Positions 3,001 through 8,573 of a stretch of DNA of 44,554 bases are shown in pieces; the first letter of the stretch is position 1, and each line of letters opens with the position of its first letter. The DNA is taken from positions 1 to 44,554 of the forward strand of contig JAJRUD010000016.1 of NCBI GenBank assembly GCA_024277995.1, read 5' to 3'. The position numbers were made by a program, and so were the translations under genes. The notes beneath the pieces are model-generated. The model made no database searches and was not told where the DNA came from. It was given only the letters and a program-made list of their open reading frames with translations. The DNA comes from Chloroflexota bacterium (lineage in GTDB: Bacteria > Chloroflexota > Anaerolineae > Anaerolineales > E44-bin32).

Positions 3001-3060
3001 GCGGATGGTCCGCCCTCTCTCGATGTGTCTATCTTCACGACGGGCAGGGGCTTCCTGCCC
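3001..3060 (+). other. Two small hairpins between kinase and aminopeptidase genes
   Basis: GCGGA-TGG-TCCGC (3001-3013) and GGGCAGG-GGCTT-CCTGCCC (3042-3060) can each fold. Neither is followed by a T-run, so they are weak terminator or RNA-processing candidates only. Confidence 0.3.
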
Positions 3061-3088
3061 ATCACACCTTCTCAACAGGAGAAAACTC

Positions 3089-4192
3089 ATGCCCGACCCG
3101 CGCGTCGTCAACCTCGCCCGCACTCTGGTCCACTACTCCACTCGCGTCCAACCCGGTGACAGGGTGGCCATTCGCGCCACGGCGCTGGCTGAACCCCTGG
3201 TGCGCGAGGTCTATCGGGAGGTGCTGCGCGCCGGCGGCCATCCCCACCCCTTTATCAGTCTCCCGGGCCTGCAGTATATTTTCTACAGCGAGGCCCAGGA
3301 AGCGCATTTGAAATACGTCTCCCCCGTCCAAGAAATGATATTGGGCGAATTCGAGGCGATGGTCAATATCTACAGCGAGGCCAACACGCGCGAGCTCAGC
3401 GGCATCGACCCTCAGCGCCAGGCGACGATGGCCCAGACCTACGGCGATCTGATGCAGACCTACATGCGCCGTTCTGCGGAGGGATCCTTCAACTGGGTGA
3501 TCACCATGTTCCCCACTGAGGCCTATGCTCAAGACGCCGAGATGAGCCTGGCGGAGTTCGAGGAGTACGTCTACAGCACCACCTACTCCGACAGCGATGA
3601 CGCCGTCGCCGAGTGGGAGCGTTTCCACGCTTTCCAGCAGAAGCTGGTGGACTGGCTGAAGGGCAAGAAAGAGGTGGTGGTCAAGGGGCCCCACGTGGAC
3701 ATGAAGCTCTCCATCGAAGGCCGCAGCTTCATCAATTCGGACGGCCGCAAGAACATGCCCAGCGGCGAGATCTTCACCGGCCCCGTCGAGGATTCCGCCG
3801 AGGGTTGGGTGCATTTCACTTACCCGGCCGTGCTGCAGGGGCGCGAGGTCACAGGCGTTGAGCTGCGCTTCGAGCAGGGGCGGGTGGTGGAGGCCAAGGC
3901 GGAGAAGAACGAGGAGTTCCTGCTCTCCATGCTGGACAGCGACCCCGGCGCGCGCTACCTGGGCGAATGGGCCATCGGCACCAACAAGAAGATCGATCGT
4001 TTCATCAAGAACATCCTCTTCGACGAAAAGATCGGCGGCACCATCCACATGGCCCTGGGGGCCGGGATCCCTGAGACGGGATCCAAGAACAAGAGCGCCA
4101 TCCACTGGGACATGATCTGCGACATGCGCGACGGCGGGCAGATCTTCGTCGACGGTGAGCTCTTCTACGACTCGGGCGAATTCATGATCTGA
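3089..4192 (+). CDS. M29 family aminopeptidase (aminopeptidase T-like)
   Basis: Cytosolic metallo-aminopeptidase of 367 residues, the usual M29 size, expected to remove N-terminal residues from peptides. It starts MPDPRVVNLARTLVHYS, typical of the family. The C-terminal half carries the conserved dinuclear-metal region, including NEEFL, the GTN segment and the final IHWDMICDMR box. The start at 3089 has AGGAG eight bases upstream; the ORF-track start 28 codons earlier overlaps intergenic hairpins and is rejected. A strong terminator follows directly, so it is probably a single-gene unit or the end of one. No signal peptide is visible. Confidence 0.92.
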   Translation: MPDPRVVNLARTLVHYSTRVQPGDRVAIRATALAEPLVREVYREVLRAGGHPHPFISLPGLQYIFYSEAQEAHLKYVSPVQEMILGEFEAMVNIYSEANTRELSGIDPQRQATMAQTYGDLMQTYMRRSAEGSFNWVITMFPTEAYAQDAEMSLAEFEEYVYSTTYSDSDDAVAEWERFHAFQQKLVDWLKGKKEVVVKGPHVDMKLSIEGRSFINSDGRKNMPSGEIFTGPVEDSAEGWVHFTYPAVLQGREVTGVELRFEQGRVVEAKAEKNEEFLLSMLDSDPGARYLGEWAIGTNKKIDRFIKNILFDEKIGGTIHMALGAGIPETGSKNKSAIHWDMICDMRDGGQIFVDGELFYDSGEFMI

Positions 4193-5012: not shown

Positions 5013-6185
5013 TCATCCCTTGGATCTATGGCCAGCCCAGGCCTGGGCTTTGTGGATGCGCTGACTGAGAGGGGGATGGGAGTAGAAGAGCAGGACGACC
5101 CAGTCCTCGGGGTCGACCTGGGCCAGGTTCTGGTTGGCCAGGCGGGTCATGGCGCTGGCGAAGGCCTGCGGCTTACCGGTGATGGCCAGCGCGTAGTCGT
5201 CGGCCAGCCTCTCGCGCCAGCGGGAGAAGGCGTTGGCGAGCGGCATGCTGATCAGGCCGGCCAGAGCCAGGAGCAGGATCAGCAAAGGCAGCCCCGCCGG
5301 ATCCGCCGGGCCGGTCAGGCCGGTCCGGCTGGCCAGGAGGGCGAGACCGCCGCCTGCCAGCGAGAAGCCCAGCAGGTTGAAGGCGCCTTGGGCCAGGATC
5401 ATCAAGGGGATGTCGCGGTGCACGTGGTGAGCGAGCTCGTGGGCCAGGACGGTTTCGATCTCATCGGGGGTAAAGGATTCCAGCAGGGTGTCCCCCAGGA
5501 TGATGCGCCGCGTGCGGCCCAGGCCGGTCAGCGCTGCGTTGGCGGCCCGAGTGCGGCGGCTCATGTCGAAGGTGAACACGCCTTGCACCCGGGCCCCGGC
5601 CCGTTCGGCCATGCGCATCAGGCGCTGGGCCAGGTCCGCGTGATCCTCCCCCAGCGGTCTGAAGCGGAAGAAGATGGGCATGAGCAAGATGGGAGCCAGC
5701 GCGGCCAGGACGGCTGTGAAGAGGGTGTAGAGGGCGGCGGCCCAAAGCCACCAGTGGTCGGGCGCGGCGCGGATGAGTGCGTAGAGACCCAGCAGGAGCG
5801 GTATCCCCAGGGTCAGTGAGATCAGCAAGCCTTTGGCTTGATCGAGCGCCCAGTCCGCAAGTGATTGGGTGGAAAGGCCGAAGCGGTGGGGCAGGGTGTA
5901 GCTGCGGTAGAAGTCCAGCGGGAAGGTGAGCAGGCTCCAAGGGAGACCCAGCAAGGCGCCCATCAGGAGCAGCCTGACCCACCAGGGGGGTGAGAAGGGC
6001 AGCGCGCCGCTCTGGTCGGAGGGTCGGAGCGCCTGCGCTGCCAGGTGCGCCCAGCCGGCAAAAGCCCACAGGCCCAGGTAGAGCCCGGCCAGCGAGACCT
6101 CCAGGGCCCACAGCCGGCGGCGCAGGCGGGCGTAGCGCCTGGCCTGCTTCTGGCGTTGGGGGTCGAGCTGGACTTCTTCGCGCAT
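5013..6185 (-). CDS. M48 family (Ste24-like) membrane zinc metalloprotease
   Basis: A 390-residue polytopic membrane protease with the zinc-binding HELAHH motif (H249, E250, H253) and the downstream glutamate region SRWRERLADDYAL. N-terminal membrane segments, the HRFGLSTQSL region and additional helices match the Ste24/CAAX-protease layout. In bacteria such enzymes act in membrane protein quality control; prenyl-protein processing is not expected. It starts at 6185 with no obvious Shine-Dalgarno. Instead a TAGAAT box lies only six bases before the ATG, so the mRNA may be leaderless. It is convergent with groES. Confidence 0.9.
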   Translation of the reverse strand: MREEVQLDPQRQKQARRYARLRRRLWALEVSLAGLYLGLWAFAGWAHLAAQALRPSDQSGALPFSPPWWVRLLLMGALLGLPWSLLTFPLDFYRSYTLPHRFGLSTQSLADWALDQAKGLLISLTLGIPLLLGLYALIRAAPDHWWLWAAALYTLFTAVLAALAPILLMPIFFRFRPLGEDHADLAQRLMRMAERAGARVQGVFTFDMSRRTRAANAALTGLGRTRRIILGDTLLESFTPDEIETVLAHELAHHVHRDIPLMILAQGAFNLLGFSLAGGGLALLASRTGLTGPADPAGLPLLILLLALAGLISMPLANAFSRWRERLADDYALAITGKPQAFASAMTRLANQNLAQVDPEDWVVLLFYSHPPLSQRIHKAQAWAGHRSKG

Positions 6186-6370: not shown

Positions 6371-6550
6371 TTAGTGCCTCTCTGCGTGCAATTTGGACAG
6401 CCCTCCTGCAGCGCCGGGCTTGGTCTCGAAGGTGATGTGGTCGTTCGCAGGGGCGGTTTCCATCTGCCAGCCGAAGAGCCGGCTGAAGAAGGCGGCGGCC
6501 TGCGGGTCCTGGGCGGCGGATTCTACACCCACGATCGGGTGTGGGCTCAT
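6371..6550 (-). pseudogene. Truncated VOC (glyoxalase/bleomycin-fold) fragment
   Basis: This 59-residue ORF is just below the ORF-track cutoff. The translation contains GVESAAQDPQAAAFFSRLFG followed by W, the N-terminal beta-alpha-beta half of a vicinal-oxygen-chelate domain. It then runs through HITFETKPGAAGGLSKL to an early stop. Complete VOC proteins are about 120 residues, so roughly half is missing. It lies just downstream of the decayed exporter genes, which supports reading this stretch as a region of gene decay. It could alternatively be an expressed half-domain. Confidence 0.5.
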
Positions 6551-6658: not shown

Positions 6659-7087
6659 TCAGTCTCTCAATCTGACCGTTGAGGGCACGCCCCGCTGTTC
6701 CAGCAGGCGTTCTTCGCATATCTGGCGCACGGTGGCCTCGATCTCTGGCTCGCGCACTTTGTGGTCGCGGATGCGGTAGCGCTGCGAGAGGCGCTGGATC
6801 AGCTCTGAGGCGCTGATGGTCCCACGCTCGAATCGGTAGGTAGCGCGCTTGCCTTCCAAGGAAATCAATTCAGCTCCCTCGACGCGGGAGTTCGCATAGG
6901 GCTCGGCAAAGTCCACCACTAGTTCGCCGCGCGGGATGTTGGAGCGCACGCTATCCACGGCGTGCACCTGGCGCGCCCGCCGCCGCGCGAGCCCTTTCAG
7001 GGTTCCGCCGAGACCGCGCCCGGAGAGAGCGACGGTGAGAGCCTTGCACGGATGGCGCTTTTCGATCATGACTTCTTGTCGGTTCAT
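6659..7087 (-). pseudogene. Internally deleted ABC-2 exporter ATP-binding protein
   Basis: The reading frame is open for 142 residues but lacks the ATPase core. The N-terminal part (MIEKRHPCKALTVAL, then GLGGTLKGLARRRARQVHAV and IPRGELV) matches the start of ABC-2/NodI-type ATPases up to just before Walker A. It then jumps to the C-terminal accessory domain (VDFAEPYANSRVEGAELISL, then SASELIQRLSQRYRIRD and EPEIEATVRQICEERL). Walker A, Q-loop, signature motif, Walker B and H-loop are all absent, a loss of roughly 200-plus residues, and the deletion is in frame. Its ATG overlaps the permease stop (ATGA), showing the original operon coupling. The product cannot hydrolyse ATP. Confidence 0.75.
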
Positions 7088-7376
7088 GTGCCGGTGCTCC
7101 GATAGTGGCGGACGCCGAAGCGCCAGAAAGGCAGGGTCGCCAGGAATGTGGCTGCTTCCACGACGGGGGCGACGAAAGGAGCCCATCCCGGAAATCCGAG
7201 GGCGTCGGGCTTGCCCATCAGAGAGGACCGGATAGTAGTTCAGGAAGAAGGCGATCCCGGTGTAGGTGACGGCCCCCTGGAGGGTGTTGGCGGCCATGCT
7301 CTGGCACTGGCCATAAAGTGCGATAAGTGAGTTGTCGCAGTACGGCGCGCCGGGTGGTCTCGAGGAATGCCCGCAT
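7084..7376 (-). pseudogene. Internally deleted, frameshifted ABC-2 permease (PF06182-like)
   Basis: It starts with a good GGAGG site and MRAFLETTRRAVLRQLTYR, the usual N-terminus of this ABC-2 permease family. A frame change leads to the C-terminal piece MAANTLQGAVTYTGIAFFLN plus YYPVL. A second shift (one extra T or two lost bases near 7225) leads to LMGKPDALGFPGWAPFVAPV and the family-typical ending FWRFGVRHYRSTGT with a stop. About two thirds of a roughly 260-residue permease, including most membrane helices, is missing. It lies directly upstream of the equally gutted ATPase gene. Confidence 0.72.
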
Positions 7377-7493: not shown

Positions 7494-8573
7494 GTGCACC
7501 TTGCCGTCAATGGTTGGCACCTGGCCACCGAACCACATGGGCTGCATGCCCTGCATCTGCTCGAAACTCTGGGGCGCCTGGCCACCGCTGGGGAAGTCCG
7601 CCTCAGCCTCTTCCACCCAGAAGGCCCTGTGCCTGCGCTTCCCGACGGTGTGGAGGCCTGGCCCATCCCCGCCGAGTCCGGTCCGCTCCATAGGCTGCAA
7701 TTCGAGCAGCGCACTTTCCCCCGGGCGGCTGCTGCATCGGGAGCGGAGTTGGTGCTGTATCCCTACGCAGCAGCGCCCCTGCGGGCGGGGCTGCCGGCCG
7801 TGGTTTGCCTCAGCCTGGAGGCACATCGCCGCCGCTCACCCTTGGAGCGGCTGCGTGAGGCGCTCGGTGTTGCTGGAATGCGCGGCGCGGCGGTGGTCCT
7901 GGCGTGTTCCGATCTGCCAGCGACCGCCGCTGCTGCGGGTCTCCCACTGGTCAGGATCCCACCCATGGTCTCGGCCGCTTTCCGCGCCACGCCTGCCGAG
8001 GGAGACGACATGGTCCTGGCTCATCATGGTCTCGAGCCGGGGTATGTGCTCTGCCTGGCGCCGCGCATCGAACAGCTTCCGCTGCTGCTGGCGGCCTGGT
8101 CGTGGGTGGAGGGTTCCATGGGGGATTCCGTCCCCCTGGTCCTCGTCGGCCTCTCCAGAGAGGCTCAGGAGGATGCGGAGGCGTGGTCGAGAAGGTTGCA
8201 CATGGACCCCGGCGCTCTGTGGTTTCTGAACGAGCCGCGGCTGGAGGACCTGCCGGGCCTGTACCGGGGTGCGACGCTTTTCCTCCATCCGGGGGAGAGC
8301 GAGACGGGCCAGGAGCTGCGCTGGGCTCTGGCGACCGGCTGCGCTATCGCCGGTGTGGAAGATCCGGCGACCGCCGCGATCGTGGAGCAGGCGGCCTATC
8401 TAACGGCACCCGGCGATGCACGATCCCTGGGATCCGCCATCCTGACGCTGCTGGTGGAAGAGGAGATGGCCGCCCTTCTGCGCAGGAAAGCTCTTCTGCG
8501 GGCCAGAGCCTACCATGGCGAAGCGCCGTTGCAGGCTTTCCTGGCCGCTCTGTGTGGGGCGGCAGGGCCGTGA
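7494..8573 (+). CDS. Glycosyltransferase family 4-like protein
   Basis: A 359-residue protein with the two-Rossmann layout of GT-B glycosyltransferases. The N-terminal half begins MHLAVNGWHL. A second half follows with the donor-domain phrase YVLCLAPRIEQLPLLLAAW, then VPLVLVG, an LEDLPGLYRGATLFLHPGES segment typical of GT4 enzymes, and ELRWALATGCAI. It would transfer a sugar from an activated donor, probably in envelope polysaccharide or glycolipid synthesis. The usual EFG or E-x7-E motif is degraded to GESETGQELRWALATG, so activity is plausible but unproven. It begins with GTG, with GGGAG about 11 bases upstream. It is divergent from the decayed exporter, so loss of a polysaccharide or lipid exporter next to a glycosyltransferase is worth noting. 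Confidence 0.7.
   Translation: MHLAVNGWHLATEPHGLHALHLLETLGRLATAGEVRLSLFHPEGPVPALPDGVEAWPIPAESGPLHRLQFEQRTFPRAAAASGAELVLYPYAAAPLRAGLPAVVCLSLEAHRRRSPLERLREALGVAGMRGAAVVLACSDLPATAAAAGLPLVRIPPMVSAAFRATPAEGDDMVLAHHGLEPGYVLCLAPRIEQLPLLLAAWSWVEGSMGDSVPLVLVGLSREAQEDAEAWSRRLHMDPGALWFLNEPRLEDLPGLYRGATLFLHPGESETGQELRWALATGCAIAGVEDPATAAIVEQAAYLTAPGDARSLGSAILTLLVEEEMAALLRRKALLRARAYHGEAPLQAFLAALCGAAGP

Follow-up and report, generated by a model that had tools for sequence, protein, structure and literature searches.

Probable stepwise decay of the three genes of an ABC-2 exporter operon in an uncultured member of the Anaerolineae

Pseudogenes of bacteria are subject to a strong deletional bias, and gene loss dominated by deletions has been well described (Kuo and Ochman 2010, PMC2916853). 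The locus reported here resembles the pseudogenes of that study in carrying multiple, mostly deletional, inactivating lesions, in having lost conserved residues and in having relatives that keep intact orthologues; in contrast, three genes of an operon and a neighbouring gene are decaying together, a fusion has formed across a gene boundary, and the case is known from one metagenome-assembled genome (MAG) only. The second closely related system is the ABC-2 exporter encoded by two permeases and an ATPase. In 42 intact operons in which all three genes could be mapped, the order is permease A, permease B and ATPase; both permeases match PF06182 (ABC2_membrane_6) in Pfam, and the ATPase is DrrA-like, yet scores under the cut-off of that family. 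Compared with this exporter, the locus keeps the gene order, the start of permease A, the end of permease B (RHYRSTGT), the ATGA overlap between permease B and the ATPase, and both ends of the ATPase, but it lacks most of permeases A and B and the whole catalytic core of the ATPase. We regard it as a cluster of pseudogenes, produced by stepwise pseudogenisation of a common three-gene ABC-2 exporter operon, and give this reading a probability of about 0.9.

The window, i.e., the whole stretch of DNA analysed, is an entire contig of 44.6 kb (C232) from a MAG of 3.36 Mb in 272 contigs (86% complete, 4.4% contamination) that belongs to an uncultured lineage of Anaerolineae (Chloroflexota). The 42 operons come from 50 loci recovered by scanning public genomes with a profile built from an alignment of ATPase C-terminal domains, and the number should not be read as 42 independent lineages, given that some of the operons are mutually close kin; a scan of public genomes with the remnant alone as the query gave no match. 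The carriers of intact operons are nearly all Chloroflexota MAGs, mostly of uncultured Anaerolineae together with other Chloroflexota, and the ATPase C-terminal domain is present in 17 of the 81 related genomes searched, the source genome included. Two MAGs with the label Candidatus Acetothermia (L083 and L096) also carry an ATPase closely related to that of the exporter, the former with both permeases, which suggests either a transfer across phyla or wrong binning. Two further copies show disturbed frames: in Chloroflexi bacterium RBG_16_57_11, permease B is read in two overlapping frames (L077:3364-4182, plus strand), and in the relative G029, another MAG, the ATPase C-terminal domain is a frameshifted copy spread over two frames (L010; L027:5996-6224, minus strand).

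Of the exporter operon, some 0.7 kb is left in the window, on the minus strand at about 6659-7376. Since no match above cut-off was obtained with Pfam on the short remnant reading frames, their identification rests on the relatives. For mapping the pieces by tblastn, the query was L063, the intact operon closest to the remnant; most matches between remnant and intact genes have E values from 1.4e-4 to 9e-32, and the order of the pieces is that of the 42 intact operons, on a single strand, despite the different frames in which the pieces are read. A Pfam match to VbhA (E 0.017) falls on the ATPase C-terminal domain and was rejected, being under its cut-off. The features of the locus and of its flanks are as follows.

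5013-6185, minus strand: intact flanking gene for an M48 (CAAX-type) metalloprotease (Pfam; 55-62% identity to family relatives)
6371-6550, minus strand: glyoxalase-like (VOC) gene reduced to its N-terminal ~53 residues out of ~120, recognised from intact relatives
6659-6925, minus strand: C-terminal domain of the ATPase, with a weak resemblance to DrrA1-3_C (53-70% identity to intact relatives)
6914-6925, minus strand: junction 3, a 606-bp in-frame deletion in the ATPase at the shared GAACTAGTGGTG (ELVV), mapped on intact genes
6917-7087, minus strand: N-terminal end of the ATPase up to RGELV (tblastn, residues 1-51 at 7069-6917, and the sequence itself)
7085-7252, minus strand: C-terminal end of permease B (FFLNYYP ... 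FWRFGVRHYRSTGT; tblastn, 52% identity over residues 244-287)
7245-7267, minus strand: junction 2, permease A at about codon 64 joined to permease B at about codon 227, mapped on the 42 intact operons
7253-7327, minus strand: permease A residues 40-64 (tblastn, 56% identity, E 1.9e-7)
7319-7328, minus strand: junction 1, where permease A has lost 68 bp and the frame changes (flanking pieces in frames -2 and -3)
7320-7376, minus strand: permease A (ABC2_membrane_6), residues 1-19, with its start codon retained (tblastn, 68% identity to L063)
7494-8573, plus strand: intact flanking gene for a glycosyltransferase-like protein (Pfam)

The original prediction, which placed degraded ABC-2 exporter genes at 6659-7376, was thus correct as to their nature, although the decay also reaches the VOC gene outside those coordinates. 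It had further proposed a comparison with the intact operon of relatives, and it was this comparison that gave the four lesions of the operon and their sizes. The picture of a single permease without its middle was not borne out. The pieces map to residues 1-19 and 40-64 of permease A, followed by residues 227-241 and 244-287 of permease B; instead of two complete membrane subunits, what is left is distributed over three frames. At junction 1, the homologous points are 68 bp apart in all 42 intact operons, as judged from alignment-based mapping, and the frame is shifted since 68 is not divisible by three. At junction 2, the end of permease A and the start of permease B are lost, a stretch of about 1.24 kb (1230-1601 bp, mode 1240, in the 42 intact operons). 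The piece with residues 227-241 of permease B (7267-7223, minus strand) comprises 15 residues and is weak when taken alone (E 0.01); residues 244-287 follow at 7218-7087 on the same strand (E 2e-13) in a different frame. The change of frame lies near 7220, at YYPVL/GKPD, and fits a loss of 2 bp; as no close relative can be compared, any loss of 3n+2 would look alike. The apparent single permease gene is the start of permease A fused to the end of permease B, with two changes of frame. The claim of two deletions of the same shape in two genes is wrong, since the pieces of the permease remnant stem from two separate permease genes; the actual losses are 68 bp in permease A, about 1240 bp across the gene boundary, 2 bp (or 3n+2) in the tail of permease B and 606 bp within the ATPase. 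A short permease reading frame can, therefore, be a fusion of two decayed adjacent genes, which has little import beyond annotation.

The ATPase remnant was described correctly in that both ends are kept and the middle is lost in frame. Its start codon overlaps the stop codon of permease B as ATGA, and residues 1-51 are joined in frame to residues 251-326 (6925-6698 by tblastn with L063) in an open reading frame of 142 residues (6659-7087, minus strand). The gap at junction 3 is 606 bp in 42/42 intact operons, a multiple of three, and with residues ~52-250, i.e., the catalytic core, the Walker A, signature, Walker B and H-loop motifs are all gone. The sequences at the two ends of this deletion encode GELVG and ELVVDF in intact relatives, often with GAACTGGTGG at both. 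With the DNA of relatives as a stand-in for the ancestral DNA of the source lineage, the run shared by the two ends has a median of 5.5 bp and a maximum of 12 bp; for random pairs within the same genes, the 99.9% point is 8, and a median of 5.5 is reached in about 1%. The tblastn matches of the two ATPase pieces overlap by 9 bp in the window (6917-6925), as would be expected if one copy of the repeat had been retained. These observations support slippage between repeats as the probable mechanism of the ATPase deletion. On the other hand, the runs shared at the ends of the 68-bp and 1.24-kb deletions have medians of 2 and 2 in the relatives, which equals chance. Hence, the proposed look for short repeats at the deletion edges had a positive outcome for the ATPase but not for the two permease deletions, and the proposal of stepwise repeat-mediated decay is supported as to its stepwise character, with four or more lesions spread over three genes and a neighbour cut short, and as to repeats at the ATPase, but not as to repeats at the permease junctions.

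The packing of several deletions into about 0.7 kb might call to mind a programmed or recombinase-driven excision that made them all at once. Nevertheless, no motif common to the junction sequences is evident, the sizes are unequal (68, about 1240 and 606 bp), two of the lesions disturb the frame, and a recombinase gene was not seen in the patch, so that this account has next to no probability. Under stepwise pseudogenisation, the exporter operon and the downstream glyoxalase-like gene would have become non-functional in this lineage of Anaerolineae, after which independent deletions would have eroded the exporter genes: 68 bp from permease A, about 1.24 kb from permease A into permease B, a frameshift of the 2-bp type in the tail of permease B, and 606 bp in the ATPase, the last presumably by slippage during replication, or a comparable event that needs no RecA, from one short direct repeat to the other.

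The in-frame state of the ATPase remnant, the retention of its start codon and the 53-70% identity of its C-terminal domain to intact ATPases could also mean that a short functional protein has been retained, either the 142-residue fusion or just its C-terminal domain, which might, e.g., regulate another exporter. This is highly improbable, as a similar short reading frame was found in none of the 81 related genomes or the 50 loci (the short matches seen in other genomes were ended by contig ends or frameshifted), the upstream permease genes are destroyed, and conserved residues have been lost, with L replaced by H, R by Q and Y by C among the changes in the C-terminal domain. Besides, both copies of the repeat encode ELV in the same frame, and therefore the deletion had to be in frame; a short repeat whose copies specify identical residues in one and the same frame can yield an in-frame deletion, and the in-frame state is thus no evidence of function. 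For the same reasons of distribution and residue loss, the earlier idea that short coding ends had been retained found no support. The remnant spans 36 ATPase positions with a conservation of 90% or more and departs from 7 of them, against a median of 1 in the intact relatives, although 7 or more are changed in 3/42 of these too. Such a loss is moderate evidence, short of proof, for a relaxed constraint on the remaining ATPase sequence. We infer that the open frame of 142 residues is what recent decay in GC-rich DNA would leave; together with the well-conserved C-terminal domain, it could mean that the decay is recent or that a product is possibly still made. More improbable still is the reading in which the remnant, with its C-terminal domain but no catalytic core, continues to be expressed and modulates another ABC-2 exporter on its own.

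When the assembly, 86% complete, was searched for a second copy of the exporter with the ATPase remnant and an intact permease B as queries, only this locus was matched; an intact copy could lie in the missing ~14% of the genome. The assembly consists of 272 contigs with 4.4% contamination, and an assembler might have joined repeats or mixed strains, the organism itself having an intact operon. However, assembly k-mers are usually far longer than the repeats at the junctions, which reach about 12 bp at most; a collapse would not produce four lesions in the operon, two of them small and frame-changing, along with the truncation of a neighbouring gene and substitutions at conserved positions; and fragments of an intact copy were not found in the assembly. 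An artefact of this kind is accordingly very unlikely, and the case is one of ordinary gene decay.

The surroundings of the remnant extend the decay beyond the operon. An intact glyoxalase-like (VOC) gene of 120-122 residues adjoins the M48 gene in three relatives (L055, L057 and L058; Pfam), and the C-terminal half of this gene was not found within the window. Since the VOC gene is truncated beside the operon remnant, hardly any of the 1.3 kb that separates the two intact flanking genes is untouched by decay. In two relatives (G021 and G009), the glycosyltransferase-like gene adjoins the M48 gene with no ABC operon in between, and such an operon was found between these flanks in none of the 10 flank loci of family relatives; the exporter operon was either gained at this locus by the source lineage or lost by the other members of the family. 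Rfam and tRNA scans of the window gave nothing near the exporter remnant. A gene for an M29 aminopeptidase-like protein also lies near the M48 gene, as a single copy in the window (3005-4192) and as a tandem pair in three relatives (L057:1533-3782, L058:2114-4363 and L056:5999-8000).
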